Part shown: positions 3,271-62,987 of the stretch, one piece after another
Numbering within the stretch: position 1 is the stretch's first letter
Layout of the letters: the number at the start of each line of letters is the position of its first letter
Source: a virus
Direction: 5' to 3' (one strand)
Length of the DNA: 62,987 nucleotides
Virus record (IMG/VR): IMGVR_UViG_3300025671_000063
Location: 1 to 62,987 of that record
Notes under the pieces: generated by a model
What the model saw: the letters and a program-made list of their open reading frames with translations, nothing else
Told to the model about the DNA's origin: nothing
Database searches by the model: none
Program-made: the position numbers and the translations under genes

Positions 3271-3421
3271 GGAAGCAGTGTACTATCAATTCAAGTACGT
3301 ATCACAAATAATAAAGTCAGGGACATTCGAGTCAATACGACTCCCGTACCTCGGTAAATTCCATGTACTCCCCGGGAGACTTAAGCACTTGAATAATGCG
3401 AGAGCTAATAACTGTAAGTAA
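3206..3421 (+). CDS. Short HU/IHF-like DNA-binding protein, 71 aa
   Basis: Residues 12-50 follow the HU/IHF dimer-core pattern: helices (IQKIEEAVYYQFKYVSQII), then a strand and turn (ESIRLPYLGKFHVLPGRL) equivalent to the GFGxFxVxxR region. At 71 aa it is shorter than HU (about 90), and the DNA-gripping arm appears reduced. IHF-like subunits near the terminase genes are a recurrent feature of crAss-like phages. A role bending DNA for packaging or at promoters is likely but inferred. Its 5' end overlaps the zinc-ribbon gene by 65 bases and its 3' end overlaps the next gene by 26. Confidence 0.65.
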   Translation: MDERIILQKLATKYDLPIQKIEEAVYYQFKYVSQIIKSGTFESIRLPYLGKFHVLPGRLKHLNNARANNCK

Positions 3422-3893
3422 CAACGTAGTAGTACCCTCCCCGTACGCTATCACCATCAGTGAATTCAAGGTACTGAAGAGCAATGAGCTTGGGGCTGTA
3501 TACTTCTTTGCAGACCACAACTCCCCCTACGCTGTCTACGACGAAGACGAAAGGGAGGAGAAGATAGGGCAAGATCTAAAGATTAAGTTCACAGCTAAAG
3601 TGAGAGCGGGTATAGATAAATATAGGGAACTATCTGAGACTCACGCAGTTAAACTATTAAAAGCAGCCCGCATATCAGTTAACAAACTTGAGCACTACTT
3701 CAAAGGTATGGACCTTACACTGCTAGATGACCACGGTAAACCTGTATACTCAGCCAAAGACTTGATCATGAATCTAGAGAAGATGGGGAAAGTAGTACAG
3801 GGTCTAGAAGACCTCGAAGAGATAGTCAAGAAGCAACAATCTAAAGGCAACCCAAATCGTGGTGGGGTAGTAACTAACAAGTACTCACAGTAA
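3396..3893 (+). CDS. Probable small terminase subunit or packaging accessory, 165 aa
   Basis: It lies directly before the large terminase, whose ATG overlaps its stop. The N-terminal third contains FFADHNSPYAVYDEDEREEK, a motif I recall from proteins at this position in Bacteroidota phages. The rest is helical with coiled-coil propensity (about 60-150) and a polar tail. Small terminases recognise packaging sites and are usually helical oligomers of this size, so position and shape support the call. No clear helix-turn-helix is seen, so the identification remains tentative. Confidence 0.5.
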   Translation: MRELITVSNNVVVPSPYAITISEFKVLKSNELGAVYFFADHNSPYAVYDEDEREEKIGQDLKIKFTAKVRAGIDKYRELSETHAVKLLKAARISVNKLEHYFKGMDLTLLDDHGKPVYSAKDLIMNLEKMGKVVQGLEDLEEIVKKQQSKGNPNRGGVVTNKYSQ

Positions 3894-25824: not shown

Positions 25825-26063
25825 AAGATCCAAAGACACTTATCACTTCAGCTGCAGGACTTCTCGTTGTAGGTATAGGCACTTGGCTTATAGCTACTAC
25901 TGCTGACAGCACCGTAGAAATGGCTACGGCAGAGAAAGACATTGAATCCATAATCATCAAGCTTGACGAAATTGAGGAAGATGTAGAAAAGCTGCAGTCA
26001 CAGGTCAGAGAGCTCAAAGCTAGTGCACATACGCACGATAAACGGGGAAATGTAGTAGAATGA
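25821..26063 (+). CDS. Single-TM coiled-coil protein, spanin-like, 80 aa
   Basis: A hydrophobic segment at about residues 8-26 (ITSAAGLLVVGIGTWLIATT) is followed by a Glu/Lys-rich coiled coil (about 38-65) and a polar His-containing end. An N-terminal anchor plus coiled coil directly after a holin is the layout of an i-spanin (Rz-like) that helps disrupt the outer membrane. No lipoprotein partner is visible in an overlapping frame, so it could act alone or be a holin regulator. Function is inferred from architecture and position. Confidence 0.6.
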   Translation: MKDPKTLITSAAGLLVVGIGTWLIATTADSTVEMATAEKDIESIIIKLDEIEEDVEKLQSQVRELKASAHTHDKRGNVVE

Positions 26064-27187
26064 CAATTGAAGATATAAAGGACTTCATCGGGGAGAGGCC
26101 TGGTTATCTGAAGAAGAGTGCGCAAGTACTTGCAGAAAGACTTGACGCACCGATAGAAGACTGTGAAACAGCACTATACGAAGCTAGAACGCTAGCTCGT
26201 GGGAACTCAAATGAGAGCGATAACGTTATCACTGAGTTCCAAGAGTACCTTGACAAGAATGGAATCAAAACTTCAGACGTAGCTAGCGTAAAGTTTTGGC
26301 AGACAGTATCAGGTAAGCAGAGGTTCTCTGTAGTTACAAAGAGCGAATCTGTTAGTGTGCAAGATGTAAAGCAAGAGATAGAACGCTTTGCATCTAAGTA
26401 TAGCCCTGAGGTACCACTCATAGAGCGTGAGCCTAAGCTCAAGCCTATTGCATATGAGATATCTCTACCTGATTTGCACTATGGTAAAGAGCATAGTCAA
26501 TCTATAGATGAGGTTGAGGCTCAGTATATAGGTGTAGTGCATGAGCTGGTACGCAAAGCTGATGGTCTAGAGATAGACAAGTTCATACTTCCTATTGGGA
26601 ATGACGGTATGAACTCTGAAGGGATGAGGAGAACTACCACAAAAGGAACACCTGTTGAGGAATCAGCAAGTTGGAAAGATACATTCCGTGGTTACTGGCT
26701 GCTTATGGTCAAAGCGATTGACTACTTGAAGCAGATAGCACCTGTGGATGTAATTGTGGTTTCTGGGAATCATGACTTCGAGCGTATGTTCTACGCAGGA
26801 GATGTGCTCTCAGGGTGGTATAGGTATGACCAAAATGTTCAAGTAGACAATAGCTATGAGAGCCGTAAGTACTACCAGTACGGAAAGAATATGCTGATGT
26901 TTACGCATGGAGATAAAGAAAAAGCTGCTGACATGCCACTGATCATGGCGACGGAACAACCGGAGATGTTTGCACGTACTACTCACAGAGAGGTACACTG
27001 CGGCCATCTTCATAAAGAGATGGTAAATGAGTACAGAGGTATTAAGGTCAGGTTCATACCATCTATTTGTCCTAACGATGACTGGCACAAGCAGATGGGG
27101 TATGAAGCTAAACGAGCAGGACAAGCATATATATGGAATAAGCAAACTGGACTTGAAGGATATCTACAGGCAAATGTTAGACTTTGA
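26060..27187 (+). CDS. Calcineurin-like metallophosphoesterase, 375 aa
   Basis: The five metal-binding blocks are present in order: LPDLHYG (D138, H140), IGNDGMNSE (N181/D182 in place of GDxxD), SGNHDF (N237, H238), FTHGD (H283) and CGHLHKE (H316, H318). The first 110 residues form a separate helical domain (IEDIKDFIGERPGYLKKSAQ, then LAERLDAP) that looks like a DNA-binding helix-turn-helix. The substrate is unknown: nucleic acid, nucleotides or a protein phosphate. Similar enzymes are frequent in Bacteroidota phages. Its place inside the lysis and tail region is unusual. The last 14 bases overlap the next gene. Confidence 0.85.
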   Translation: MTIEDIKDFIGERPGYLKKSAQVLAERLDAPIEDCETALYEARTLARGNSNESDNVITEFQEYLDKNGIKTSDVASVKFWQTVSGKQRFSVVTKSESVSVQDVKQEIERFASKYSPEVPLIEREPKLKPIAYEISLPDLHYGKEHSQSIDEVEAQYIGVVHELVRKADGLEIDKFILPIGNDGMNSEGMRRTTTKGTPVEESASWKDTFRGYWLLMVKAIDYLKQIAPVDVIVVSGNHDFERMFYAGDVLSGWYRYDQNVQVDNSYESRKYYQYGKNMLMFTHGDKEKAADMPLIMATEQPEMFARTTHREVHCGHLHKEMVNEYRGIKVRFIPSICPNDDWHKQMGYEAKRAGQAYIWNKQTGLEGYLQANVRL

Positions 27188-48000: not shown

Positions 48001-48446
48001 CTGATCAAAACAGTATCTCTGAGCAATTCAGAGTATCTAATCCTGTGTTTGATGAGTTCTATGCATACAATAGCACTCAGATTACAGGTCTACCTATAAC
48101 AATCAACTACTTGAATAATGCTAGGTTGGTAGATAGGATATGGTATGTCAACGAGATACGAGATCTTTCAATCCAACAACAACTTACTGAGGGTGAGCTT
48201 ATTACTGGAACAGAGAATGTTGCAGGAAATATAACAACAGAAGTTACTGTGCACCCTCAAGCTACAACTATGTTCACTGAAGAGGGTGTAGTAAATAACA
48301 ACTATGTAAATCTCAATAAAGAATGGTTTAATCGCAGAAAGATGATTGACCACTATCTAGGAGTGAGACTTATAAAAGATAATACTAACAGAAATTTAGT
48401 ACATTTGTATGCAGTTGGTACTAAGTTCCGTAAATCATTCAGATAA
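42090..48446 (+). CDS. Tail hub/stabilisation protein, 2118 aa
   Basis: The opening motif MKKLGKGMFKDTARVDQPEG, then MRDALNANLNIKKGSISNEW, matches what I recall of the large stabilisation/tail proteins of crAss-like phages, where GKGxxxDxxxxxQPxGTxRxxxN begins the protein. The rest is a very long mixed alpha/beta tail barrel with many Tyr/Asn-rich strands. The final 60 residues (NNNYVNLNKEWFNRRKMIDH, DNTNRNLVHLYAVGTKFRKS) form a typical closing beta segment. It probably builds the short tail tube or muzzle. Its length is near the upper end of the family as I know it. Confidence 0.75.
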   Translation: MKKLGKGMFKDTARVDQPEGTMRDALNANLNIKKGSISNEWGTYEYPNNAGFRVLGRTVLDDDVIVMFGQAVNVVDNETVYTDQIRTLNTRNQEVLVLYENDLLNFQQTHPIVATNRKNQAGDYIVYFTDGYKEEAELYTAFEYVNTYNPPRVINVTRQRAFRLRGGLVDQLYNNTNSFYKLNLIPRIGTHSSFDSARVLSGGNLYAAAYYLALAYTDRDGVETNYFVLSNPVYIVPNSENITPTNSFIGAEGGTKCNKTIQWVVDTPIDIDYELLQPAVIKLQKTAMTAEKLKPVAMNKGYETIVTYSGNEDSQSIAVEDIIVDDVNYITADTISQLDNRLYLGNVSSNKDIGFQPFAQNIQLEAVVEEAEAFSPRLYDTFALNQGYAALIQEWHADVPQQFKNEYQDLQTGNISYAPTGNINYQYQELLNNLLLDPLGNTRKGYRDPNFYFQRKSFRRGEVYAFYISFILNDGTETYAYHIPGREPRCIPVPATQQTTYEYAQYRKVTFSFDDYDFSFGGSGVASQHELVFLYVPPLGQGNSPVGYPNAGYYRPAGWTNDATLVNQFNANSLPETISVTGATYISLTLNSADDFGASYNQTTVFNAMEAWLLSNGPTLGATEGWDEIVGEEISSQTPAILETEVSISILSDDDVCENDALSKNPAATKLAFGFLPTEALEQYDDIRLFNVLDTGNKIDPELSGNMGYWANENEFYPSTRDFTFGDVTTEGVAVLDDAQGIYGERVRHHRMPGNLSDEFSYIERSSEHPVNNSNGNTHGWFEELGYRPLEGDRLRTIRGIGGDGTMALDENVRLLGVRLNNLKIPRGILEQIQGYKIYYAKRDEKDKTILGQSIAVPGHPRAASVNKQSLEEAVTGPFTKAFYMYGGLDHTDNTTVETYGKWKSTIEGERRYYSHPVFKFHDLHQLRKRSDMSAATHIQCQYGVIFRMYSGGPGVFVPPCAPDKVWDAVIDFDESELSTSFNDGVPDYIIRNSDNNLDPWDAHSTTFPSLGWVSPEMQNTVDFYWHDPKNQLGKKSIDKKMFGETRILDISDVQEGVINYGFIGDDDGEIVGQGVDGGANDNTGVSIAKRARKYRRGEDLSQPANGDFEGKAEQFLAIKAKEARVRAWYTSAMIGTAYISPSIALSSPTVVKGGSYKAVSAFLDGDYLVTSGASALNRFYQEGNFDDNQLTLMLDPNSKILLHGRENHETSDSTSFKGAQILYNLAGETAHAFGLVSGLPALRGHAPFDNLTQVGSNGDRAGLVRWGEALNWLYPDAFKDTVPYEYQLYGFNTGSQFHYLANASGQDGEMYAPRNYQGLRYRMSPTNHIMGLPMAWLLNVCAIRRNVFSPFDQQNLVWTGYFNRIRNANLTTGEADDGYYTRNYYEGAQSREIFGGDTYITKTSFRSTSQSYGHSYWRANRWYGDPVGASEEYTQGGVVIENASNLINIAFNTTDFFGRRRFQSDLPANLDPLSAGLYIADRFGTTQGAPIWNATPDYLQIGVNSGAADSRYDMAQKFVNVVADSHNWVKGNVNPVSTVFSFYVESDDLLEWRHVDDVERGEKTKVFDYHTGHSVIFNPPYDDFTKPDKILYEDHLSALQNVKVTSPLNVFGELSKVQTFPNRVVRSDVDSGSISDGYRKFRALEYKDIPTHRGQIKNLFDLNGNLYIHTERSLFVTKGKEELQLDAVTAFIGSGNIFVQDPDEAMQADAGYAGTASRHAHITTVYGHFYVNYRDRKVYSVSGQGVADITSGMETWLRDNMPFALEQFGINLDSENARENGFFVDATTGVNVPIGFTLGYDPLFKRILITKHEPIPTQQFFEDFYAGNIVVINDIPELISGCADLDVIQTNARVPIPEQVNFKANNPVYCGPIWFGNPVYFTQSSWTISYYPELKVWGSRHSYAPNLYTNTSEYLVSFAGDRSWEHTNKNNPGRFYGELYNFEVEFIDNTAAAEAKLFSNMFYWAESFLPDQNSISEQFRVSNPVFDEFYAYNSTQITGLPITINYLNNARLVDRIWYVNEIRDLSIQQQLTEGELITGTENVAGNITTEVTVHPQATTMFTEEGVVNNNYVNLNKEWFNRRKMIDHYLGVRLIKDNTNRNLVHLYAVGTKFRKSFR

Positions 48447-50485
48447 TGGCAAACAGAAAGCAAGGATATTTGGACAAAGCTAAGCGCCAAATGAAAAAGA
48501 AAGGAACTGTCGGCGCATTCACAGAATACTGCGGTGGTAAAGTTACAGATAAGTGTATAGAACGTGCACTAAATAGTAACGACGATACTTTACGCAAGCG
48601 TGCACAATTTGCTAAGAACGTTAGAGCAAAAGACGGGGGAGCAAAACCTCTGCCTGGGGGTATTATGCAGCCCATAGGGTACGGTGCATTCAAGTTCCAT
48701 GGCAACAAGCATGATGAAGCAGGTATGGGTTCTGACAGCGGTATCATACTTGAAGAGGGTGGTAAGAAGAAGCCAGGCCTTGAAGTAGAAGATGGTGAGC
48801 TGCAAGTAGATGTTAATACCAAAGATGGTAAGAAGGAATACATAGTGTCGGATTACATCAAAAATCCTGCTACTGGTAACACACTTGCCGAAGATCTAGA
48901 AAAGGAACTAGCAAAAGCTAAGAACAACCAAGAAGCAGCTAAGATTACTGCACGCTACGTAAGACTGAATGAAAAGCTTCGCGGAGAAGAAGGGGAACCT
49001 GAATCAGTAGAGAAGCCCAGAGAAAAAGCACAACTGGGTAAGAGACGCAAGCAAAAGAAACAGTACGAGCAGGACATGGCAGACTACGAAGAAAGCTTGT
49101 CTGAATTTGAGGAAAAGCAATCTGCTTATGAAGATGAAAAGAAAGCTGTTGAAGAAAGAAACAAGAAGATACGAGAGGAGAATAAAAAAGCTAAAGAGGA
49201 CTACGAGGCTAAAGAAGCTAAGAGGAAGGAGATTATAGAGAGGAACGAGAAGCTTAGGAGTGAGCGTGGAGCTGCTGGAGCAATTCAAGAAACAGATCCT
49301 AATACGGGAGAGCGTATATACGGTGAGACTGTGGTTAACAGCGGTAACCGGGCAGATAAAATGAGGGACTGGTATAACAGGATGACTGAAGAGCAAGGTT
49401 CGCTGCCAGAAGACGTAGATAGATTTGACTTCTCAGAATATATGACTGATGGAGAGTTTGATCCTTCTAAATTTGATACTACAGAAGCTAAGGACTCTTT
49501 TAGAAGTTGGTACAATGAGCTAGACGATGACCTGGTTACAGGTAAAATAGCGTCTGACAATCAGGGTAGAGACCTGATATTCGGTGATCAATGGTATAGC
49601 AGGCATCTATTGGAAAGACCTGGTGCTCCAGAAGCAGAGCCAGAGTACAAGCCGGAGGAGGATTTGGAGGCTCCTACATTTGAAGGTGAAAGACCCGATA
49701 AGCCAGCAGATCTACCTAATCAGTTTAGGCCTCGAATGCCGGGAACCATGTTACAAATGGCTGGTCCTATAGCTGCTTTACAGTCTATGCAAGCTGCGAA
49801 TCTTATGAAGCCGGAGTATGCTAGGGAAGTACGTATGGGTCGTACAAACTTAGATCCAGAACGTGCAGCAGCAGCTCAACAATCTCAAGGAGCAGCAGCT
49901 GGTATAACATCTTCTATGTCTGGTCCCGGAGCACTAGCTATGCAGCAAAAGAATTTGGCTGCAGGTCAACAAGCTCAACGTAATATTAATGACCAGGAAA
50001 GCAGAGCCAACTTACAAATAGCCAACACGGAAAAAGGTATCAATGCAGGTATTAGACAACAGAATGCTTCTAATGCTATGAAGGCTAGTGAATACAATGC
50101 TTCTGCTAAAACTAGAACAGCGGAACAGAATAGAGCAGTAAAGCTAGCTGCTATCAATCAGATGGGTAAGATTGGTACACAGACAGTTAAGGATTACAAC
50201 CAGCAGTATGCTAACTTTGGGAGTGACATGATGCAATATGGTCCTGTTGCAGCAGACTACTATGCTAATGTGTACAAAGGCAATACTCCCTTTAATATGG
50301 GTGCTAGAGATATAAATGTATCTGGAGCCGGAGCGGAAGAGCAGGTTGCTGATATTATGCAGAATCAGCAAGCATCTGAAATATTACCTGACTCAAACGA
50401 CACCAATGAAGGTGGTAGGAAAGGCAGGTATGTGAAAAAGCCTGGGAAGATTCGTCGTAAGACTACAAGAAAGAGAAGAAGATGA
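48446..50485 (+). CDS. Virion cargo-like protein, Lys/Glu-rich, 679 aa
   Basis: The N-terminal domain contains KGTVGAFTEYCGGKVTDKCI, then ALNSNDDTLRKRAQFAKNVR, and LEVEDGELQVDVNTKDGKKE followed by YIVSDYIKNPATGNTLAEDL. I recall this pair as a conserved module of structural proteins in many Bacteroidota phages. A long highly charged coiled coil follows (about 195-280, KRRKQKKQYEQDMADYEESL). A Pro-rich segment, a Gln/Ala-rich helical region and a very basic C-terminus complete it. It probably travels inside the head or tail. The ATGA overlap with the next gene suggests equal synthesis. Confidence 0.68.
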   Translation: MANRKQGYLDKAKRQMKKKGTVGAFTEYCGGKVTDKCIERALNSNDDTLRKRAQFAKNVRAKDGGAKPLPGGIMQPIGYGAFKFHGNKHDEAGMGSDSGIILEEGGKKKPGLEVEDGELQVDVNTKDGKKEYIVSDYIKNPATGNTLAEDLEKELAKAKNNQEAAKITARYVRLNEKLRGEEGEPESVEKPREKAQLGKRRKQKKQYEQDMADYEESLSEFEEKQSAYEDEKKAVEERNKKIREENKKAKEDYEAKEAKRKEIIERNEKLRSERGAAGAIQETDPNTGERIYGETVVNSGNRADKMRDWYNRMTEEQGSLPEDVDRFDFSEYMTDGEFDPSKFDTTEAKDSFRSWYNELDDDLVTGKIASDNQGRDLIFGDQWYSRHLLERPGAPEAEPEYKPEEDLEAPTFEGERPDKPADLPNQFRPRMPGTMLQMAGPIAALQSMQAANLMKPEYAREVRMGRTNLDPERAAAAQQSQGAAAGITSSMSGPGALAMQQKNLAAGQQAQRNINDQESRANLQIANTEKGINAGIRQQNASNAMKASEYNASAKTRTAEQNRAVKLAAINQMGKIGTQTVKDYNQQYANFGSDMMQYGPVAADYYANVYKGNTPFNMGARDINVSGAGAEEQVADIMQNQQASEILPDSNDTNEGGRKGRYVKKPGKIRRKTTRKRRR

Positions 50486-52659
50486 GAAGAAAAAGAGCAC
50501 AATTTGGTCAGGTCGTAAGTGGGTACGTAGATCCTACTCCAGAAGGTCTTGATAAAGCGTATGATAGACATATGGATAACCTCCTTATGAATGCAGCTAT
50601 TAGAACAGAAGCTAACCAATTGAATTCTGCTCCTTTTGAAGGAGACAGAGAAGCTCGTAGGCAGCTCTTGGATAATACTGACAGAGCTCTTACTTCAATA
50701 ACAGACAGTGCATCTTCTAATTATGGTAACCTGTCTAATATGACAGCTGCTGTCACTAGAGCTTCTGCTGAGTATCAAAAAGGTTCTCAACCTATAAAGC
50801 AGAACTTAGAAAACTATACTGCTTATAAGAGCGAGCTAGATGAGCTGCTAAAAAACAAGAGGATAGACGCAGAAGACTACGAAGGTAGTTTAGATCTATC
50901 TACGCTCGGATACAATGGATTCTCCTACGACGAAGCAGGTAACGCAATCAATATGTTTGAGGGTGTAAAAGCTTGGCAAATACCTGACATACAAAATCGT
51001 ATCCGCCAGGCTTTGCAAGGGCTTAAGCCTGACTCTGTAATAACGTCGAATACTATACTTGGAGGTGAACAAGATGGTATGGTTACACTTAAGACTGCCT
51101 CAGGCACTACACAAGTAAGTGAAGAGAAAGTAAGAGCAGCTCTTCAGGGAGTCATGAACGATCCTGAGGTTCTTGGATACTACGGAAGGAAAGGAGAAAT
51201 TAAAGCGGCTCGTATGGATGAGCCAAACCTTAGACAGGAAATTGCTAGGATGATGGATGATGAGTCTAAGTCTTCCAATCCTGATCCGGAGAAAGTTGGT
51301 AGACTTTCTCAAGCTTTAGAGGCAGGAAATATAGAGGAGATGCGGCAAATTGTTTCAGATGACATTAGAGACAATATACTTGGGACAATAACTGATGGAG
51401 CAGTAGAAGGAAACTCCTTCAGACAAACATCAAACACCACAGACAGATCTTATGATGAGTTGTGGATGACAAACTACAAGCAGAAACTTGCAGATGAGTC
51501 TTGGAAAATGCGTCAAGATTATGAAGCTGCACAAGCTGCAAAAACTGCAAAGACAACTGAGCCTGTAACGCCTAGTCAGCCCGGATTTGTAATCACAGAG
51601 GATGGAATAGTATATAGAAGAAGAGGAGGTGAATATGCTGGAGAGCTGCATAATGAAATAACTGCAGTTGAGGCAGAGCTTGAAGAGCTTCTTACTCTGT
51701 ACGAAAATCCTCAGAATCAATTATCAGCTGAGGGAAGGGAATCTCTGGAGAGGCAAATAGAAGATAAAGCTACAGAAGCCAGGATGTTAAACATTACATT
51801 CCAAGATTTGTACAAGGACACACCACAAAATTTGCTAGACAATGATTCAGAGTGGGAAGCATTGCAGGAAGATGAACCATTTTCGTTTACTGGAGTAGGT
51901 GCTGCGGGTGGAGTTGGGATTTTACAGACATTGCGCCGTCAAAACAAACAAAAACGGGAAAAAAGAGACTTCTTGATGCAAGAAGAATATGCATCACCTG
52001 TGGGTGAAAGCACTGTCATATCAACTACATACGTAGATCCTATGAGCCTTGGTTTGACTAAAGCGCAAGCTGATCAAATGGATGCTTTCTTTGAGGCAGG
52101 TATCAAGCCTACTCAAATGGTTTTAGATCCTGTTACAGGCCAAACTATAACATATAAAGAATGGAAGGCCGGCAAAGATGCAAATGGTGATCGTAGACCT
52201 CAAGACCTTGTAGTTAAAGATGTTGCAGTATCTTACTCTGCACCTATAGGAGGTCAACCTACAGTAAGACTTTCTATGGCAAATAAAGATGGTCAAAGTG
52301 CATCACTTCTTGTTCCTGTAGGAAAAGGAAGTTACTTCGACATCCCTGGACTAAGCCAGTATTATGATAATCCAGGAGCTAAACTGGTAAGCGAGTTGCT
52401 TACTTATAAGCATGAGGGTCTTACAGACATAGATATGAACGATGGTCTAAAATGGGTGGGAGAATTCACAACAAATCCCAGCGATCCAGCTGCTCCAAAA
52501 GTTCAGCAAGGCGGCTATATAACTGCTGATCTTACTACATCAGAAGGAGGGACTATAAGCATATACAACGCGCAAGGAGAACTTATTAATACTGTAGGCT
52601 TGCTTGATCCTAGATTACAGACCTTTGCAAAACTCTACAACATAAAACTTACTATATAA
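50482..52659 (+). CDS. Virion cargo-like protein, helical, 725 aa
   Basis: After a basic start (RRKRAQFGQVVSGYVDPTPE) the protein is mostly helical. Its region around 190-230 (SGTTQVSEEKVRAALQGVMN, DPEVLGYYGRKGEIKAARMD) is like cargo proteins I recall between hub and RNA-polymerase genes in crAss-like phages. Near 540-570 is DPVTGQTITYKEWKAGKDAN, a DPxTG phrase that also occurs in the giant gene. Beta structure dominates the last 120 residues. It is expected to be ejected or packaged with the giant protein. The stop shares a base with the next ATG. Confidence 0.65.
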   Translation: MRRKRAQFGQVVSGYVDPTPEGLDKAYDRHMDNLLMNAAIRTEANQLNSAPFEGDREARRQLLDNTDRALTSITDSASSNYGNLSNMTAAVTRASAEYQKGSQPIKQNLENYTAYKSELDELLKNKRIDAEDYEGSLDLSTLGYNGFSYDEAGNAINMFEGVKAWQIPDIQNRIRQALQGLKPDSVITSNTILGGEQDGMVTLKTASGTTQVSEEKVRAALQGVMNDPEVLGYYGRKGEIKAARMDEPNLRQEIARMMDDESKSSNPDPEKVGRLSQALEAGNIEEMRQIVSDDIRDNILGTITDGAVEGNSFRQTSNTTDRSYDELWMTNYKQKLADESWKMRQDYEAAQAAKTAKTTEPVTPSQPGFVITEDGIVYRRRGGEYAGELHNEITAVEAELEELLTLYENPQNQLSAEGRESLERQIEDKATEARMLNITFQDLYKDTPQNLLDNDSEWEALQEDEPFSFTGVGAAGGVGILQTLRRQNKQKREKRDFLMQEEYASPVGESTVISTTYVDPMSLGLTKAQADQMDAFFEAGIKPTQMVLDPVTGQTITYKEWKAGKDANGDRRPQDLVVKDVAVSYSAPIGGQPTVRLSMANKDGQSASLLVPVGKGSYFDIPGLSQYYDNPGAKLVSELLTYKHEGLTDIDMNDGLKWVGEFTTNPSDPAAPKVQQGGYITADLTTSEGGTISIYNAQGELINTVGLLDPRLQTFAKLYNIKLTI

Positions 52660-55600
52660 TGTCTGAAAAGGTTATAGATCCTTTCACAGGGCTAGAGGTT
52701 GTCAAGTCTGGTGTTGTAGACCCTTTCACAGGGCTTAGCTATGACACTGCACCTGTTAAAGATGATACTCCTATCATGCCATCATCTACTGAGATGTTTC
52801 TTGATGGGGATCCAAATAGTTATCTAAGCTATGGTGTGCCTGTTCTTCCTGGGTTAGACATTGATGAGATGCGTGCTCAGCGTCAGTCTCGTGCAGAGAA
52901 GTGGGGCAGAGGATTGATGAAAGCTGGTGTTACTACCGCAATGGCTTTTACTGAAAACACTCTTGGAGCGCTCAACGGTATAGGTGAAGCTATTTATTAC
53001 AGGGACTGGACAAAGCTTGCAGACAATACTACAGGTAGAGCAGTAGACAGCGTTAACGCTTGGATGCAAGACAACTTTAGAAACTATTACACCAAAGAAG
53101 AACAGGAAGCGATAGGACTTGAGAATCTTGGATACGCAAACTTCTGGGGAGATAAAGCTGCTAACGGTCTTGGGTATGCTGTAGCTAGTGTAGCAAGTCT
53201 ATATGCTACTGGTGGAGTAGGAATAGTTACTAGAGGATTAGGATTGGCTGCAAAAGGAGCTAAGGCTGCTGTAGGTGCTGCAGCTGCTACAAAGGCCGGG
53301 AGTAGAGCAGCTGGTATTTATAGAGCTTCTAAAGCTATTGCTACTGCTGAAAAGCTGTACAAAACTGCTTCAAGTTCAGCTAAAGTTAGGAGGGGTATAA
53401 GTGCTGCTAAGCAAGCTGAGGTAGGTATAAGTATGTCTCATGCAGAAGCTGCAGTAGAAGCCAGAGAAGCACTGAAGCACGCAGAAGAAACAATGCTAGA
53501 TCAGATAGCTGCGGAGAAAGGAGTTGACCGTATGCAGCTGAGTCAGAGCGATAGAGAAAGAGCTAGAGAAGAAGCCAGCAAGATTGGTAATGCTGTGTAT
53601 GCTTCTAACATGGCGGTACTTGCACCTACAAATCTTGCCATGTTTGGGGGGCTGTTTAAATCTAAATTCAAAGCATCAAGATCTAGTCTTAGTGGCTTTA
53701 CTAAAGATGCAAAGTCTAAGCAGTGGTTGGACATGTGGTCTGCTGACAATGCAAAAGCTTGGCAAAGAACTGCTTCTAGGTATTTGCAGAATCCTGCAAA
53801 AGACGCAGTTACTGAGGCTTTTCAGGAAGGAACCCAATTTGCAATTGGACAGGCTGCGGGCGCCGCTGCAGAAGGTGAAGGCTATAGCAGTGTTCTTGAT
53901 TGGTTAGGTGCTATAGGTGAGGGAGGTAACGAGATACTCAAAGGAGATAAAGAAGGTATCGAATCCGTTCTGCTTGGTGCTATTATCGGGGGATTCATGG
54001 GTGGTGTTCAATCCGGGATATCTCGTTATGGAAAAACAGAGGAAGATGCTCAGCGTAAAAAAGTACTGGATAGACTCAACAGCCCTACCCTATATAAGGT
54101 TGTGGATAACGCTGAGTTTGCTAAGAACCAGGAGACTATTCTAAAAAAGATGCAAGACTCATTGGAGTCTGGGGATCACAAAGGTTACAGAGATGCTCAG
54201 CTAGAGCTGATCCAAGAGAACGTTCTTTTCCATGAACGCAATGGTAGCATAGACATGTTCATGGAAAGAATAGATGATGCTAAGTATATGGAGAAAGAGG
54301 AGTTTGCAAAGGCTTTTGGGCTTCCTGAGAACTCTGACTTTGACCATAAACAGATAGTTTCTGATCTAACGCAGGACGTTAAAAACCTAGTCCAGATAAA
54401 AAGAGAGCTTGATGCTATTGCTCCAGGTCAAGAAACAACTGGTCTTCCTAGGCTACTTACATCTAAGGATGTACTTGAAGAGGAAAAGGACAGACTAACT
54501 GAAGAGTACCATATGAAAGACTTCCTTGTCAGGAATAAGAGCAGATTGCTTGATGCTGACGGAAGGATATCTAAGATGCGTGCTGAGCTTATGGATCTGT
54601 TCAATCCTTTGAGCAAGGAAGAAAGAGCAGTTGCAGAGAGAACTATTAAGAGGCTTACGTACAACTCTAGTAAAATTCGTAGACTCCAGAAGAAAGAAAG
54701 GGAGCAAGGACTTTCCGAGGGGGAGAAGGAACAGCTAGCTTCTTTGCTTGCAGAAGTAGACCGTAATGAAGCTGCACTAGAGGCGGAAGAAGTAACCGAT
54801 GATCAATTAGGAGCAGACAAGCAGAGCTATAAAGAAAGGCTTATAAAGCCCAAGGAAGAGAGGGAGGATAAAGTAGAGCCGCTTTCTCCTGAACTTAGAG
54901 AAGCTCTTAATAATATAACTAAGAGTATATCAGATCCTTCTGACAGGCTAAAGGCAGAAGAACTAGCTAGGGATATATCTAGACTGGCAGGAGACAGAAC
55001 GCAAGCAGCGTATGCACTGAACGAACTTCTTAGCAATCCGGAAAGAAGAGCGGGTTACATAAGAAGGCAGATGAAAACTAAAGAAGAGGCTGCTCAGAAG
55101 GAAATTGATAAGTACGCTGATAATTCTATTGCTAGCACTACAACTTCTGCAGAGCTCTACGATCTTGGGATACTAGCTAAAGATAAAGGCGTATCTCCTG
55201 CTGCTCGAAAGAAGCTAAACGACGAGTACAAGAGGAGGCAAGAAAACGAAGAGGTTGTAGCTGTAAGACTAAACCTTGAAGACCTACCTGTTCTTAAGAA
55301 GAAAAAACAAGAACTTGAGGCTAAGAAAGAGAAGGAGGAACTTACACCTGAAGAGAAAATAGAACTATTTGTACTAGATACTATAATACCTAGTAGAGAA
55401 GCTCTAGGAGAGCAAGGTATAGAAGGCAATAGAAGTAGGCAGAAAAAGGCTCAGGAAGCAGCTAGGAAGAAAGCGGAGGAGGAAGCAGCGGCAAGGGCTG
55501 CTGCGGATGCAAAAAAAGAAGCAGACAAAGCCAATCAAACTAACGACTCTTCTACAAACAACACTACTAATCCAGATAATGATGGGTCAAGAAATCCTAG

Positions 55601-58600
55601 ATCCCCATCACCATTTCAAAGTGAACTGTACATCGTAAATGGTGAGTTCCAACTTAAAGACATAACCACTGATAAGAACGGTAATACCATAAGACGTAAA
55701 GCGGTTGTCTTTAAAAATGGTGAGCCAGTACCGGGTACTGATGTTGATCCTGCACATCCAAGAACGATAGATAGAGGCTTCTTAAAGACAGAGGAGGGGT
55801 ACAAGGAAGTCATGGAAAAGGGCGTGGAGTTTGAACACGTTCGCAGCACTAAGGACAATAAGAACCTAGAGTATATATATGTAAAGCTTGCGGGCACAAA
55901 TACATACTTGGGCTTCCTTCCCAATCCTATGAGCCAAGGTTCTAAAACTAGTAACCTGCTTATGGAACTTATTGCTGGTAATAAGGTAACAGCTAAAGTA
56001 AACACCATAGAGTATGCTGGAAAAGGCAACTTCCTTGCTGAGACTAATGATCAAGGAGAGCCTGTCTTTAAGCCTGTCTCTGAGGTACTAGGTGAAGACG
56101 TTCCTCCTAGTTTTGTAGGGTTAGGTATTGTACAAAAAGACAATATCACTGTAATAGCTCAGAACAAGTCTGATCAGGAAATAAACGAAGCTCAGGAGAA
56201 TCTCAATTTGAGAAGAGATTCAATGGAACTTACTGCAGGACAAGTTGTTATGGTAGTAAAGCTCCCTAACGGAGATTACACTGCTCTTACTACTAGTACT
56301 AAAACTCTAGGTGAAGAGGGCTACGGAAGACTTGTAGATATAATTGCCAAGAAAGGTGAGGGCAATACCGTGTCTGAGATTAAGGCTCTTCTTGGTATAC
56401 CTAATAACTGGATACAAGGTAAGACTTCATTCTTTGTAACACAGCTTAAGAACTCAGGAAAAGTAATATTCAATTTTGAGCATAAAGGTGCAATCATAGG
56501 CATGTCTTATGATGAAGTATCTGGTATGCTTGAAAGTGGGGCACCTAAGTTTTTCAGCTATGGTAAGATGGTTGAAGAAACAACTGATGAGGGTGATGTT
56601 GTAACTGTATTTGAGAGAGAAAAGCCTAAGAAGGAAGGGGGCAATGCGTCAACTGCTGAATATCAGAGACTTAAGGAGGGGATGCTAGAGTCTTTCAAAG
56701 CTGCTGCTATGAACTCAAGAGTTCAGGTTAGCAAAAAGGCACTGCAAGAACTAGAGGGGGCGTATACAGATCCTGTAACAGGAAAGACTTATGCTTCCTA
56801 CCAAGAATTTGCTATTAAGGAACTGCTTACTACAAGTAATAGGTTTCACAAAGGGCTTCCAACGTACGACCACAGAGTTTCTATGTCTGTTAATGTGCAG
56901 GAAGGAGCTAATACTTCGGAGACTACCGGTAGCAGCGGCAGGGTAAAACCCGAAAACACCGAAGGTAAAAAGAAGAATACCACTAAGAAAAGAAAAGGTG
57001 GAGCTGGAACAAAGCACAACTTCGGAGAGCCTACCAACACAGAACCTACTAGTAACGAAACAAAATTTAATCCTAGTAATGCTGTAGCTCTGACTCCTGA
57101 AGAGGAAGCAGAACTTATGGCTTCTATAACAGGTGAGGGGACTACTGCAGAACCACCAAGCAAAGATGACACCAGTGGTGCCGACCGGCAAACTCGAGAT
57201 CATCGGCTACGGCAAGAGCGTGAGGCAGTGTTACAGCAAAGTGACACTATTCCGGAGGGTGATTACATCAAGGGTAAGACAGGAGAGAAGACCAAGGATG
57301 TACTCACGCGCTATGTCAGAGGTTATCTGGAAGAGGTACTTACACTAGACATCAAAACAGCTAGTTATGATGCTATGTCGAAGAATTTAGTTTTGACTTT
57401 GCAGCCGGGGGACACAGAACTGGAAGTGCGCGTGCCCATGCATGGTATGGTCTTGGGCGGTTCCGTAATATTAGACGTTGACACCAAGCAGGTAATCAAT
57501 GCATATTTTGATGCAATTGAAAAGGCTGGAGGAGCCGACGTTGCTGGTATAGTAAGTGAAGAAGAAGCTCGGCAACTAGAGGAGGGCATAAAGAATGCTT
57601 ATGAACTTCTAAATGAAGCAATAGAAGTTGCAGACTATGAGGGTATCAAGTATCAAAAAGAATATATAGAAGCTGCCAAGGCTAAATGGCAAAAGCTTTT
57701 TAATACTCCTTATGATGAGTATGTCAAGTCTAACACAAGTAGACAAAGTTTAGCTGGAGAGACTGACGCAGCGTTTGCAGCTGAGGAAGCCGGAATGGGT
57801 GCCGTTGAAGATGCCTTCGTAGATGGATTCCAGCCAGATGAAGAAGCTGGTGTACCTTTTGTATGGGAAGGAAATGAGTTTAGAATCTTTACTGCAGACG
57901 AGATTGAAATTGTATCAGCTACTAAAGAGTTTGTAGCAGATCAAGGCAAGCTCGGTGTGGATATATACAATGGTCGTAGCTTCTCTTTTGCATCGTCATT
58001 TAAAACCTTTCCTCAAGGTCTTAAAGACGAGATAAAGAGAATAGGAGACCAGAACGCAAGCGATGTTAGCGATGTTCCTTTTAGTCTTAAGGATTCTACT
58101 ACAGGAGAAGTAAGTATTGACACTTTCTTCTTTGTAAGCGGGCTACACCCAAATGGGGAAGTTGGGTACGCCGTTGCCAACTATGATTCATCAAAATTAA
58201 GTGAAGACAATCGTAGGTTCCTAGCACAATATTTGACTACTGAGACGAATATACCTGATGGTAAGAATATGGCGGTTAAGCAACTAAGGGAAAATATGCA
58301 CGCCGTATACATAGCAAATGAAATTCCATTTGCAGAGTTGATGAAAGCCCCTAATGGAGGCGTAAGGACTGGTAGAGGTGGAAGAATGGGTGTAACATTC
58401 CTTATGAAATCCAGTCCTACACCGGAGACATTAGATGCTTTAAAGAAAAGAGCTGATCTTCTGTTTACCAGGTCTATAGAAAACATAAACAACAAACAAT
58501 ACGTCGAAGACCTTCGTATTAAGGTAAACGGAAAAATACAGGTAGGACCTCCTAGCTATAGCCTTAAGTCTCCAAGTACTCCTAAGAGGGGTAAAATGGA

Positions 58601-61600
58601 ACAAACTCAAGCTGTGTCATGGCTCAGAGCGAGGTTTGGTAAAGACTCAGTGAGTATTTACACCAACATGAAAAAGGTTGGTAGCGCTGTTGTCCATGGA
58701 TATATGGAGAATGCAGCTGTTCACTTGTGGTCTAATGCTGAAGTAGGTACTGAGTACCATGAAGGATATCACTTGTTCTTTAGAACATTGCTTAACGATA
58801 AGCAGAGAGAAGCCATATACCTGGACGCACTTGCAGAGTTTGGTGAACCTACAGCTGAAGATATAGAAAAAGCTAAAAGAGGCCAACTTAATATTACCAA
58901 CAAGGAGGCGCGTCTGCTTGCCTTGGAGGAGAAAATGGCTGACGCTTTCCGTGACTATGTTTTGTCTCAGAAAGCCCCTAAGAGTTTTGGGCAAAGACTG
59001 GTTAAGTTCTTCAAAGATCTGTATGCATACATAAAAGCATTTGCAGGTAAGCCTGTTGCTATGAGGCAAGCGTTTAGGCTTATAGAGTCTAACCGCATAC
59101 CGGCATCTTATAGTAGAACTGCACAGGCGTTTTCACCGGGAGCTGCGTTCATGATGAAGCAGTATGCTGCTGACCCTCAAACTTTTAGAGAGCTTAGAGA
59201 TATAGCTATATACAAAGCTCTAAATGAAGTCAGTGCAAGTGGGGCAAACATGCAAGACTTGCTAGGTAGCCCTGAGACAGCAAATGTCAAGGGTGGAGAT
59301 TCTACTATACGTAACTGGTTCTTGAGATCTGCTTTTCATAAAGACAGCCCGGATATTATGACGGGTGGTAGAACTAGAGAACCAATTTCAGATAGGGAGT
59401 TCGGAGCATTGCAGAGAGCATATGATGATCCTCAGCAGTTCCAAGCTGTACTCAGTGACTATAATATTAAACTGGGTGCTCCAGAGTTTACCCATGATGG
59501 GGAAGTTATGCCTTCACAGATGATTGGGGAAGAAGCTGCAGATAATGCACAGCTTTTCCTAGAGGTCTATGAGCATTGGCATGACAAACGCGGAGAGCTC
59601 GGAGGTGTCAATGTAAGAGGATTCCGTACAGACATAAGAGATCGTCTTCGTGATTACGGTTTCAAAATTTATGACTCCGAACAAGCTAGAGAAAGAGGAG
59701 AAGTAAATGACAAGGAAGAAGGAGCTGACAGAAACTACTCTGTGTCTTACGCTCAAACTGACCCAGCCGCTGCTCTTGGGGATAAGGCTAGGAGAGTACT
59801 GTCCAGAATACCTGTGAAATCAACATCTGAATCTTACTTCGGGTTTGAAACTTATATGCCTATAGAGGACATATATCATGAGATACAAACTGCTGTAGTT
59901 GGAAGTGAAAGCTATGTAGATATGATGGAGAAGCTCAAGAGCAGATCTTCCAATATCAGTAGCCTTACTGCAGTTTATGACTTTATCCAAAATCTGTCTA
60001 CTCCGGAGAAAGCCCTTCTGTATAGTGTATTTTCACAAGCTATGACACCGTACAAAATGATTGTCGTAGAGAGCAGCTCATCCTCACAGCCTGGTAAACC
60101 TAGGAAAGTAGTCAAGATTATAGACAGTAGTTCTAAGAGTATTGAGAGATATTTTACTGCTAAGTGGGCAGAACAAGCTACTTCTGTGGCAGGAATATAT
60201 AAGGTGAGCGTTAGTGAGGACGGAGACATTCTAGATATACAAGCAAACCAAGCAAGGTTGGGTAAAGCTCTTAAGCACTACAAGAATATTGTAGACTTAA
60301 AAGGTACCGGAGATAGATCCTATGAGGAGCTGGCTGACATGTTGTTAGCTCTTGGAATTAATATAGCAAAGGACCGAGAAACTGCTGCTAGGAGAGTTAA
60401 AGAAGCCTTGCAGATGGAAGGCATATCGGTAAGCAACTTCATCAAAAGGCCAAACACAAACCTCAAGGATATTATGGAGAACCCCAACAAGCTAGGTAAG
60501 CTGGGGAAAGCCAACTATCCTAACATATTCCAGACGGAGAGTACCACTATGGCTACTATATCCAAGGTTATAATGTCTAAGTTCGAAGCTCCTGTGGCAG
60601 CATCGTTCTTTAACGGCCTTGGTAATTTGATATTCCCAATCAATCTTAAGAACGATATGAACATCACGTCTGAGATGGTAAAAGACGTGAGCAGTGAAGG
60701 CCTTCAGGCTATCATGGAAGGTGAAGAAGGTAGCAAAGGAACCGTTGGAAGTTACATAAGAGGTAAAGATCGTCAGGGTAATGAGGTAGTTTACAACAGC
60801 TTGGCGCATATGATGATATCTACTAAAGCTGGTAAGGAAAGCTTTGAGATAGTAGACATAGACTCTAAGCGTGAGGGAGATGAGAGAGCTGTAGAATATG
60901 ACAACTTTGACTATAACGAGGGTCTTTCAGTAGACCTTATAATGTTTGGGTCTAGCAAAGACAAGAAGTATATAGCTATTGATACTCAGGGAGATAGAAG
61001 CAAGTTGTCTTATATGGCCATAGACAACATTCTTAATTCTAGTGTACGATCAAGCACTGGTTTCCAAGTCTTAGGTGATAACCCTTTAGAAGCTGCTATT
61101 GAAAGGACTTATTTGCTTGATCTGCACAGAATACGAGTAGCAGAGAAAACTATAGAAAGTACGCCTGACAAAGACCTCATAGCAGGTTACCATGATGGTA
61201 GATACAAAGCTCTGCAATTTGGGGGAGAGTATAGAGATACAACTAACATAGCACATGATGCTTACCTCCATATGGAGATGGGCAAGCCTATGACAAAAGA
61301 ACTTAAAAAAGCTGTCAAAGAATATGTAGCTGAGGTAGTTAATAGGATGGAAACCACCTACTTAGAGGAGATACTTAAAGAAGTTGGGGGAGAAGAGAGG
61401 CTAAGGCTTCTGGTTGCTAACAGTGTACAGCCAGGTAATGGTTATGTTGTAGGTAAGGAAATAGAATTTGTCAAGGACTACATAAAGATGAATGTAGTTG
61501 GACGAGTTATTAGTAGAGAGCTTCTGCGGAATGGTGTGCACTTTACAAGTGGTGGCGCTAACTACAATAAACGTTCGCATTTGTCTGGTACCCCTGGTAG

Positions 61601-62987
61601 ACAGTTCTTCACTTTGAGCATGAATATGGATGGTACAGACTATGGTATGCTAGATGAGTTCCGAGAGATAACTATAGCAGATAATATATCCAACATGGAG
61701 GAGGAAAATCCGGAAGCTTACAAGAGACTGCGCGACGCAATAGCAGCGCAAAGCACTGAGGAAGCTGCAGATATATTCATGCAGGGTTATAAAAAGTCTA
61801 ACGGTACCGACGCTCAGGGTATGATAACTATTCATTTCCACAGGCGTTTGGGACAGGGTCTTGGTTTGTGGACTGCAGTAGATGAGCAGGTATACAAAGA
61901 GTACATGTCTAAACCCAAGGGGCAAAGAATTTGGGACGGGGAGAGATCACCTATCAGACCTTGGAAAACCTCTTATGACTTTAGAGTTCTCGAAGAGTTT
62001 GGAGGATACAATCACCTTATGGCTGTATCTCATAAGAACTCTTACGTTGTAATGACAGATGAGCTAGTTGAGGGTGTACCTCAGATGAAAAAGCTCAATG
62101 ATTGGATGGAATCCAATAACGTACATGTTGCTAACAGTGTGGAAGCTAAGAAGCTGGGATCGTTCAGAGCGGTCACTGCTGCTAATCTGGAAGAAGCTAG
62201 AATACAAACTTTGCCTTCAAGGGGGTTGAAAGTTCCTCAGATTCTACCAGAAAAGAATACGCAGAAAACCACCTTTGGTAGACAGCCCCGTAAAAATATG
62301 ATTGCTAACATCAATCCTACGGAGACTTACTACCTGCGAGATTCCAACAAGCTTGTAACAGGTAGAGAGCTTATTGATATCTACCAGAAAGCTGTTGTTG
62401 CTAAGCTCAACCAAGGGCATGACAAGGTTGTACAAGACTTGGGGTACGATGAGGTGATGAATGCTACTACTGAAGCTGAGCAAGTAGCAGCACTTAATAA
62501 AATGATACCCAAGCTTAGAGAGCTTCTTACTGAGATAGGTGTTGAAAAAGATCTGCCTCAGAATATAATGGATGCTCTGGATGTAGTGGCTGATGAGAAT
62601 GGGGTCGTTACAACTTTGTTGCCAGCGTCTTTCCCCAGCATACAGCTTAAGCTTGACTCAATAGTTATGAACCTGTTCCGTAAGAACGCCTATCTGATGA
62701 AGATGACAGGTGTGGAAATGGTTCAGTTTGGTGAGTACGGAGGACATGAAAAAGATGGGACTCTGAAGTTCTATGATATAGATAATTCCTCAGGTACAGA
62801 CGTTGTAGTAGGAGCGGAAGTAGACATACGATATGATGTTCTTCAGGACCTAGGAATAGATCCAGAAGATCCTAACGTTGATATTGATGCAGCTCTTAAT
62901 AGACTACTTGGCTATCGTGTTCCTCAGCAAGGTAAGTCTTCTACTCTTATGATGAGGGTTAGGAAGATATTACCTAAGTCTCACCCA
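52659..62987 (+). CDS. Giant virion protein, partial; probable crAss-type packaged RNA polymerase with metalloprotease-like domain
   Basis: The frame is open for 3443 codons to the edge. Parts seen: two VxDPFTGL repeats (5-27); Ala/Gly-rich, possibly membrane-active segments (about 165-215 and 395-460); a long charged coiled-coil region (to about 960); a Ser/Asn-rich linker (about 960-990); beta-rich domains (about 990-1410); a basic linker (about 1415-1460); a zincin-like domain with HEGYH (2034-2038) and possible third ligand in LEEKMADAF (E2090/E2091); then long alpha/beta regions. The last 26 residues begin GYRVPQQGKSS (3418-3428). In related giant phage polymerases, as I recall, a YRxPxQGxxS segment stands shortly before the catalytic DFDxD loop, which would lie just outside the window. 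Such enzymes are packaged and transcribe early genes after ejection. Confidence 0.72.
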   Translation, partial: MSEKVIDPFTGLEVVKSGVVDPFTGLSYDTAPVKDDTPIMPSSTEMFLDGDPNSYLSYGVPVLPGLDIDEMRAQRQSRAEKWGRGLMKAGVTTAMAFTENTLGALNGIGEAIYYRDWTKLADNTTGRAVDSVNAWMQDNFRNYYTKEEQEAIGLENLGYANFWGDKAANGLGYAVASVASLYATGGVGIVTRGLGLAAKGAKAAVGAAAATKAGSRAAGIYRASKAIATAEKLYKTASSSAKVRRGISAAKQAEVGISMSHAEAAVEAREALKHAEETMLDQIAAEKGVDRMQLSQSDRERAREEASKIGNAVYASNMAVLAPTNLAMFGGLFKSKFKASRSSLSGFTKDAKSKQWLDMWSADNAKAWQRTASRYLQNPAKDAVTEAFQEGTQFAIGQAAGAAAEGEGYSSVLDWLGAIGEGGNEILKGDKEGIESVLLGAIIGGFMGGVQSGISRYGKTEEDAQRKKVLDRLNSPTLYKVVDNAEFAKNQETILKKMQDSLESGDHKGYRDAQLELIQENVLFHERNGSIDMFMERIDDAKYMEKEEFAKAFGLPENSDFDHKQIVSDLTQDVKNLVQIKRELDAIAPGQETTGLPRLLTSKDVLEEEKDRLTEEYHMKDFLVRNKSRLLDADGRISKMRAELMDLFNPLSKEERAVAERTIKRLTYNSSKIRRLQKKEREQGLSEGEKEQLASLLAEVDRNEAALEAEEVTDDQLGADKQSYKERLIKPKEEREDKVEPLSPELREALNNITKSISDPSDRLKAEELARDISRLAGDRTQAAYALNELLSNPERRAGYIRRQMKTKEEAAQKEIDKYADNSIASTTTSAELYDLGILAKDKGVSPAARKKLNDEYKRRQENEEVVAVRLNLEDLPVLKKKKQELEAKKEKEELTPEEKIELFVLDTIIPSREALGEQGIEGNRSRQKKAQEAARKKAEEEAAARAAADAKKEADKANQTNDSSTNNTTNPDNDGSRNPRSPSPFQSELYIVNGEFQLKDITTDKNGNTIRRKAVVFKNGEPVPGTDVDPAHPRTIDRGFLKTEEGYKEVMEKGVEFEHVRSTKDNKNLEYIYVKLAGTNTYLGFLPNPMSQGSKTSNLLMELIAGNKVTAKVNTIEYAGKGNFLAETNDQGEPVFKPVSEVLGEDVPPSFVGLGIVQKDNITVIAQNKSDQEINEAQENLNLRRDSMELTAGQVVMVVKLPNGDYTALTTSTKTLGEEGYGRLVDIIAKKGEGNTVSEIKALLGIPNNWIQGKTSFFVTQLKNSGKVIFNFEHKGAIIGMSYDEVSGMLESGAPKFFSYGKMVEETTDEGDVVTVFEREKPKKEGGNASTAEYQRLKEGMLESFKAAAMNSRVQVSKKALQELEGAYTDPVTGKTYASYQEFAIKELLTTSNRFHKGLPTYDHRVSMSVNVQEGANTSETTGSSGRVKPENTEGKKKNTTKKRKGGAGTKHNFGEPTNTEPTSNETKFNPSNAVALTPEEEAELMASITGEGTTAEPPSKDDTSGADRQTRDHRLRQEREAVLQQSDTIPEGDYIKGKTGEKTKDVLTRYVRGYLEEVLTLDIKTASYDAMSKNLVLTLQPGDTELEVRVPMHGMVLGGSVILDVDTKQVINAYFDAIEKAGGADVAGIVSEEEARQLEEGIKNAYELLNEAIEVADYEGIKYQKEYIEAAKAKWQKLFNTPYDEYVKSNTSRQSLAGETDAAFAAEEAGMGAVEDAFVDGFQPDEEAGVPFVWEGNEFRIFTADEIEIVSATKEFVADQGKLGVDIYNGRSFSFASSFKTFPQGLKDEIKRIGDQNASDVSDVPFSLKDSTTGEVSIDTFFFVSGLHPNGEVGYAVANYDSSKLSEDNRRFLAQYLTTETNIPDGKNMAVKQLRENMHAVYIANEIPFAELMKAPNGGVRTGRGGRMGVTFLMKSSPTPETLDALKKRADLLFTRSIENINNKQYVEDLRIKVNGKIQVGPPSYSLKSPSTPKRGKMEQTQAVSWLRARFGKDSVSIYTNMKKVGSAVVHGYMENAAVHLWSNAEVGTEYHEGYHLFFRTLLNDKQREAIYLDALAEFGEPTAEDIEKAKRGQLNITNKEARLLALEEKMADAFRDYVLSQKAPKSFGQRLVKFFKDLYAYIKAFAGKPVAMRQAFRLIESNRIPASYSRTAQAFSPGAAFMMKQYAADPQTFRELRDIAIYKALNEVSASGANMQDLLGSPETANVKGGDSTIRNWFLRSAFHKDSPDIMTGGRTREPISDREFGALQRAYDDPQQFQAVLSDYNIKLGAPEFTHDGEVMPSQMIGEEAADNAQLFLEVYEHWHDKRGELGGVNVRGFRTDIRDRLRDYGFKIYDSEQARERGEVNDKEEGADRNYSVSYAQTDPAAALGDKARRVLSRIPVKSTSESYFGFETYMPIEDIYHEIQTAVVGSESYVDMMEKLKSRSSNISSLTAVYDFIQNLSTPEKALLYSVFSQAMTPYKMIVVESSSSSQPGKPRKVVKIIDSSSKSIERYFTAKWAEQATSVAGIYKVSVSEDGDILDIQANQARLGKALKHYKNIVDLKGTGDRSYEELADMLLALGINIAKDRETAARRVKEALQMEGISVSNFIKRPNTNLKDIMENPNKLGKLGKANYPNIFQTESTTMATISKVIMSKFEAPVAASFFNGLGNLIFPINLKNDMNITSEMVKDVSSEGLQAIMEGEEGSKGTVGSYIRGKDRQGNEVVYNSLAHMMISTKAGKESFEIVDIDSKREGDERAVEYDNFDYNEGLSVDLIMFGSSKDKKYIAIDTQGDRSKLSYMAIDNILNSSVRSSTGFQVLGDNPLEAAIERTYLLDLHRIRVAEKTIESTPDKDLIAGYHDGRYKALQFGGEYRDTTNIAHDAYLHMEMGKPMTKELKKAVKEYVAEVVNRMETTYLEEILKEVGGEERLRLLVANSVQPGNGYVVGKEIEFVKDYIKMNVVGRVISRELLRNGVHFTSGGANYNKRSHLSGTPGRQFFTLSMNMDGTDYGMLDEFREITIADNISNMEEENPEAYKRLRDAIAAQSTEEAADIFMQGYKKSNGTDAQGMITIHFHRRLGQGLGLWTAVDEQVYKEYMSKPKGQRIWDGERSPIRPWKTSYDFRVLEEFGGYNHLMAVSHKNSYVVMTDELVEGVPQMKKLNDWMESNNVHVANSVEAKKLGSFRAVTAANLEEARIQTLPSRGLKVPQILPEKNTQKTTFGRQPRKNMIANINPTETYYLRDSNKLVTGRELIDIYQKAVVAKLNQGHDKVVQDLGYDEVMNATTEAEQVAALNKMIPKLRELLTEIGVEKDLPQNIMDALDVVADENGVVTTLLPASFPSIQLKLDSIVMNLFRKNAYLMKMTGVEMVQFGEYGGHEKDGTLKFYDIDNSSGTDVVVGAEVDIRYDVLQDLGIDPEDPNVDIDAALNRLLGYRVPQQGKSSTLMMRVRKILPKSHP
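58758..58772 (+). other. HEGYH zinc-binding motif inside the giant gene
   Basis: CAT GAA GGA TAT CAC encodes HExxH at residues 2034-2038, preceded by TEY and followed by LFFRTLL. Fifty-two residues later comes LEEKMADAFRDYV, giving a plausible gluzincin-type third ligand. The combination is recurrent in large polyvalent phage proteins. Confidence 0.7.

Follow-up and report, generated by a model that had tools for sequence, protein, structure and literature searches.

The identity of the RNA polymerase of crAss-like phages and its large size are already known, and transcription proteins of the group reach about 6,000 residues according to a review (PMC10136315). In phage phi14:2 the transcription block is encoded by three adjacent genes, here called A, B and C (1,797, 2,180 and 1,421 aa). 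B is the virion polymerase (PDB 6vr4; KC821624 gp077, 2,180 aa), and gp076-078 are annotated as structural by MS/MS in the database record. For crAss001, mass spectrometry has identified gp47, gp49 and gp50 as virion components, and the cargo proteins of this phage have been proposed to pass through the tail partly unfolded (PMC10172136).

Some relatives fuse two of the three genes. In Suoliviridae, A and B are joined (cr1_1, 4,551 aa; cr52_1, 4,464 aa; cr130_1, 5,801 aa) with a zincin-type domain between them, and C is separate (2,007 aa in cr1_1; 2,074 aa in cr130_1). In Intestiviridae, B and C are joined (LMMB, 4,070 aa; crAss002, 4,245 aa), and the LMMB protein is annotated as 'RNAP catalytic subunit/RNAP subunit fusion protein'. 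Thermus phage P23-45 also has a two-barrel virion polymerase inside a protein of about 5,000 residues, the 5,002-aa gp96, where it forms the N-terminal portion of the tail tape measure (PMC10770324).

The locus described here lies in the window, by which we mean the whole stretch of 62,987 nucleotides that was analysed (IMG/VR record IMGVR_UViG_3300025671_000063). What phi14:2 encodes in three genes is a single open reading frame (ORF) in the window phage, an uncultivated crAss-like phage that very probably makes its transcription block as one polypeptide, A-B-C, whose working, packaging and activity we infer from its relatives. A zincin-type domain stands between A and B, as in the Suoliviridae fusions, and B is joined to C, as in the Intestiviridae fusions; the latter differ in their separate A, in a B-C protein that has no HExxH motif and in belonging to a different polymerase clade. 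Whereas the P23-45 polymerase is N-terminal, that of the window phage lies mid-chain, between A and C.

Genome and open reading frame

The terminase large subunit (TerL), portal and major capsid proteins are of Crassvirales type (phrog_6681, phrog_6547 and phrog_11589), and on these three sequences we assign the genome to Crassvirales. The best among the matches listed are all crAss-like, with identities of 43% for TerL (cr52_1), 32% for the portal (cr1_1) and 29% for the major capsid protein. A DNA repair exonuclease gene (26060-27187; phrog_704, E 4.1e-57) lies amid the structural genes, and a 2,179-aa protein (16457-22996) has no PHROGs match at E 0.1. The 679-aa gene at 48446-50485 contains a 41-residue stretch resembling the 'tail lysozyme' of bajarodcaudo virus 1 (E 1.9e-9) and is otherwise without Pfam or PHROGs matches at E 0.01.

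The giant ORF starts at the ATG at position 52659 on the plus strand and continues without a stop codon to the last base of the window, 62987. This makes 3,443 codons, the uninterrupted frame that the initial annotation had described, with the C-terminal end GYRVPQQGKSSTLMMRVRKILPKSHP. The five alternative frames hold between 96 and 414 stops over the same interval, so chance is no explanation for the open frame. Directly upstream, a 725-aa gene (50482..52659, plus strand) ends on position 52659, the base with which the giant ORF opens. Its match to Pfam T7_gp14 is weak (E 0.0066) and below the Pfam cut-off; the product is possibly an ejection or cargo protein and only a candidate member of the system.

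A search of viral contigs with the last 495 residues of the window ORF retrieved IMGVR_UViG_3300034418_006037 (89,217 bp; hereafter L003). It has 11,488 bases in common with the window, of which 7 differ, and the 3,443 residues encoded by both are identical. There the ORF is complete (L003:1160-17707). Beyond the window edge it continues with AAVKVPPGVTTMMGSDFDVDK and reaches its stop codon after 5,515 aa, corresponding to about 616 kDa. The initial annotation, having recognised a YRxPxQG-type segment, expected a DxDxD motif a few dozen residues further on and proposed to extend the contig in search of DFDxD. The extension found it: DFDVD begins 16 residues beyond the edge (residue 3459; L003:11534-11548), in a frame that stays open, and 41 residues downstream of the glycine of GYRVP. 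The GYRVPQQ segment itself (residues 3418-3424) is encoded at 62910..62930 on the plus strand, inside the window. In 19 of the 20 listed proteins with both motifs the spacing from GYRxP to DxDxD is exactly 41, the exception being cr116_1, whose polymerase ORF is interrupted.

At the ends of L003, no exact repeats of 11 to 300 bases were found. Immediately beyond the giant ORF, the opposite strand carries genes (L003:18033-21484, minus, and the stretch L032:21196-23898, minus) for a uracil-DNA glycosylase, a product without assignment, a 5'-3' exonuclease, and proteins resembling rIIB and rIIA.

Polymerase and flanking parts

Part B, of which the window holds the N-terminal portion (59379..62987, plus strand; residues ~2240 to 3443), extends to about residue 4010 in L003, both borders being approximate. 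The L003 residues around DFDVD match the phi14:2 virion polymerase 6vr4 in a sequence search (E 9.8e-18), and a profile built on eight rows, the window lineage plus seven relatives from IMG/VR, reaches E 6.7e-70 against it across chain residues 861-1752. The two polymerases can be aligned across about 890 chain residues and share DFD[VI]D with GYR[VI]P 41 residues earlier, which bears out the earlier proposal of a crAss-like polymerase of the phi14:2 type. Identity of part B to the named relatives is about 21-25%. Pfam and PHROGs searches of the window protein gave no polymerase match, phrog_32390 in part A being the only hit, and a PDB search with the window portion alone returned nothing meaningful (best E 2.7).

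The AlphaFold model of the polymerase core, built from a shallow alignment, is poor (mean pLDDT 52.6, pTM 0.29). 6vr4 is its sole fold match at E<=0.001 (E 2.1e-11; next 0.25), but with a TM-score of 0.20. Because of the quality of this model, the assignment of double-psi barrels rests on homology. Taken at that level, the sequence evidence supports part B as a predicted single-chain two-barrel DNA-dependent RNA polymerase.

Part A (52659..59378, plus strand; residues 1 to ~2240, end approximate) is a relative of crAss001 gp47 and of the A protein of cr128_1, a putative RNAP-associated cargo protein. A phmmer search with the 3,443-residue protein gave E 5.9e-17 for crAss001 gp47 and E 5.4e-28 for cr128_1 A, with matches at residues 50-582 and 1967-2125, and the phrog_32390 match has E 3.1e-27. 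PDDEXK domains are reported in large transcription proteins (PMC7886860). Part A of a 5,346-aa relative (L004:5852-6901) contains a PD-(D/E)XK nuclease-like domain (PF12705, E 4.6e-4; 20.6 bits, just under the Pfam cut-off of 22) that aligns to crAss001 gp47 and DAC15; the window protein diverges at this region (residues 1501-2000, 17-23% identity).

Part C, the second putative RNAP-associated protein, runs from about residue 4010, an approximate border, to the end of the 5,515-aa ORF. It matches crAss001 gp49 (E 1.6e-26, BLAST) and the C protein of cr128_1 (E 2.8e-29), and also cr1_1 C (E 1.7e-24) and gp076 of the phi14:2 record (E 5.2e-15). The earlier suggestion of several fused domains holds in the sense that B is fused to two other members of the crAss transcription block, A and C. 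That the protein is also unusually long is only partly right. DxDxD lies similarly deep in the A-B fusions, at residues 3,331-3,520 in the three records measured (cr10_1, 3,331; cr1_1, 3,445; cr52_1, 3,520), and the 5,801-aa A-B protein of cr130_1 rules out a record length.

Zincin-type domains

HExxH motifs at residues 2034 and 4250 flank part B. The first belongs to zincin-type domain 1 (residues 1953-2230; 58515..59348, plus strand), near the A/B join, with HEGYH at 2034-2038 and EE at 2090-2091. The second, HEFGH, belongs to zincin-type domain 2, in part C near the B/C join. The downstream EE of domain 1 is kept in 13/13 aligned proteins, and HEFxH with the downstream KE of domain 2 is invariant in 7/7, in alignments that took in only proteins carrying HExxH. 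Both domains have the HExxH and downstream conserved Glu by which gluzincin-type metallopeptidases are recognised. Domain 1 bears the name zincin protease in two database records (LMMB and cr110_1, as A fused to zincin protease), and a Pfam peptidase search with the zincin-type domains gave no match. The model of domain 2 (pLDDT 61) has no fold match at E<=0.001, the jannalysin 4jix scoring a probability of 0.44 and E 3.7; a second structural alignment covered mostly the helical tail of the model (rows spanning 212-271). The lack of a Pfam peptidase match and of a significant fold match weighs against a zincin fold.

The two zincin-type domains are related to each other, as judged by profile comparison. 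Their hhalign score is 53.1, and 38.9 with HExxH and five residues on either side masked, compared with at most 17.2 in 19 windows off the domain from the same sequences and at most 23.7 in 59 shuffles. With the profile of domain 1, the HExxH regions of phi14:2 gp076 (49.0 vs 16.5 shuffled) and of cr1_1 C (52.6 vs 16.7) are recovered as well, which means that C proteins outside this clade can also have a zincin-type domain. By sequence identity, few stretches of the chain are better conserved than the two domains in the three lineages with an A-B-C ORF: identity to the two other lineages is 67/62% at residues 2001-2100 and 63/58% at 4201-4300, compared with 60/52% around the active site (3401-3500).

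In Intestiviridae and crAss001, where A has a gene to itself, zincin 1 likewise lies at the end of A. Part A of phi14:2, DAC15 and cr116_1 has no domain-1 HExxH...E, and the zincin-1 profile found no match in these three phages, in bajarodcaudo virus 1 or in L042, an IMG/VR relative with split genes; in this respect phi14:2 A is unlike A of the window phage. Among the separate C proteins of named phages, HExxH is present in phi14:2 and cr1_1 and absent from crAss001, cr128_1, DAC15 and cr52_1. In named Intestiviridae, five fused B-C proteins were compared and none has it (0/5). Zincin 2 starts C in L041/L042, where C is a separate gene; in L042:1-12538, A seems to end without zincin 1, and HEFGH stands at residue 231 in the 1,496-residue frame of the separate C. 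The domains thus do not depend on fusion: genes for A or C alone can encode them, and some fusions do without the second.

The two domains could serve to trim the transcription machine or to act on it in some other way. It is a little less likely than not that their purpose is a different one, acting on proteins of the envelope or of the host at injection or standing as non-catalytic scaffolds, with the chain working uncut. Their occurrence in separate A and C proteins fits such a use, and the partly unfolded tail passage proposed for crAss001 cargo (PMC10172136) is compatible with an uncut chain; against it, any target is hypothetical, and in the fused forms both domains lie near the joins.

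We consider it unlikely that the 616-kDa chain is a self-processing polyprotein, cut into A, B and C by the domains near the A/B and B/C joins. The cutting would take place in the head or after ejection and would leave end products equal to those of split-gene phages. One HExxH on each side of the polymerase, zincin windows more conserved than the active-site window, a downstream Glu kept in both domains among HExxH carriers (13/13 and 7/7) and the mutual relatedness of the domains (hhalign 53.1) would all suit a pair of processing enzymes. However, the cutting and any cleavage site are hypothetical, zincin 1 ends a separate A and zincin 2 starts a separate C in the phages named above, HExxH is absent from all five B-C fusions of named Intestiviridae, five split-gene relatives have no zincin-1 match, and the model of zincin 2 resembles no known fold significantly. 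We give similarly little credence to the wider idea of a polyprotein strategy in a tailed DNA phage, with related zincin proteases at the two joins freeing the polymerase from carrier A and partner C at packaging or ejection, in a picture where each of three polymerase clades joined the three genes in a way of its own.

Fusion states across phages

We inspected 19 named records and compared IMG/VR contigs alongside. A, B and C are separate in phi14:2, crAss001, cr128_1, DAC15, cr116_1 and bajarodcaudo virus 1 (B being interrupted in the last two), and in Dulem virus 41, which was scored from gene order, size and its C and zincin-1 matches. B and C are fused, with A separate, in LMMB, crAss002, cr110_1, cr3_1, cr8_1 and cr271_1. 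A and B are fused, with C separate, in cr52_1, cr1_1, cr118_1, cr130_1 and cr10_1, the C of cr10_1 lying beyond the end of the record. None of the 19 records has A-B-C within one ORF (0/19, counting Dulem virus 42, which has a fragmented annotation and is unscorable).

Complete A-B-C ORFs were found in five IMG/VR contigs of three lineages, with 5,515 aa (L002, L003), 5,346 aa (L004) and 5,555 aa (L028, L031), and 42-57% identity in B between lineages. B and C are fused in L005/L029 and L030/L037, contigs that end before or inside A. Three related contigs (L042, L043 and L044) have split genes, which in L042 are 11-12 bases apart.

When 20 polymerase cores are placed in a tree, the A-B-C rows come together as a single group (support 100/99) inside an IMG/VR clade, the other branch of which has split genes. 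All eight IMG/VR rows make up a group (100/100) that excludes the 12 named rows, in a tree that is based on one gene and few rows. The rows with fused B-C and those with fused A-B form two further groups, and the Suoliviridae fusions accordingly fall in a different clade from the window phage. Phi14:2 is a long row away from other Steigviridae; cr116_1, with its interrupted motif, and cr130_1 are absent from the tree. If the split state is ancestral, these sequences suggest that the same A, B and C genes were joined repeatedly and separately in each clade.

That the giant frame is an artefact of assembly or sequencing, with separate genes joined through a lost stop or a chimera, is extremely improbable and was rejected: small changes could join genes as close together as those of L042, but the complete ORF recurs in five contigs of three divergent lineages, and these rows are a single well-supported group in the tree. 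Shine-Dalgarno-like internal starts occur near the A/B join in 3/3 lineages, with none common to all three and one, at about +132 from HExxH, common to two; near the B/C join there is one, in the window lineage only. As the start of the giant ORF itself has no Shine-Dalgarno-like signal in 2/3 lineages, the internal starts are uninformative.

Among the 19 records and the searchable papers, the A-B-C fusion and the relatedness of the flanking zincin-type domains seem to be new here. No literature joining crAssphage, zincin and RNA polymerase was found among the papers searched.

Discussion

We have directly observed the ORF, its DxDxD motif, the homology of A, B and C to known proteins and their fusion in three lineages. 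By analogy with relatives whose block proteins are found in virions, the likeliest reading of the A-B-C product is a transcription machine of the virion, made as one chain and injected with the DNA. The giant chain would be made late and packed as cargo in the capsid, near the portal. It would then be threaded out via the tail, partly unfolded, ahead of or together with the DNA, and part B would transcribe the early genes inside the host.

The A-B-C lineage offers a clean test case for whether or not the HExxH domains are processing proteases. Its single ORF ties the three block proteins together end to end in a ratio of 1:1:1, which supports the idea that the proteins of the block act as one unit.
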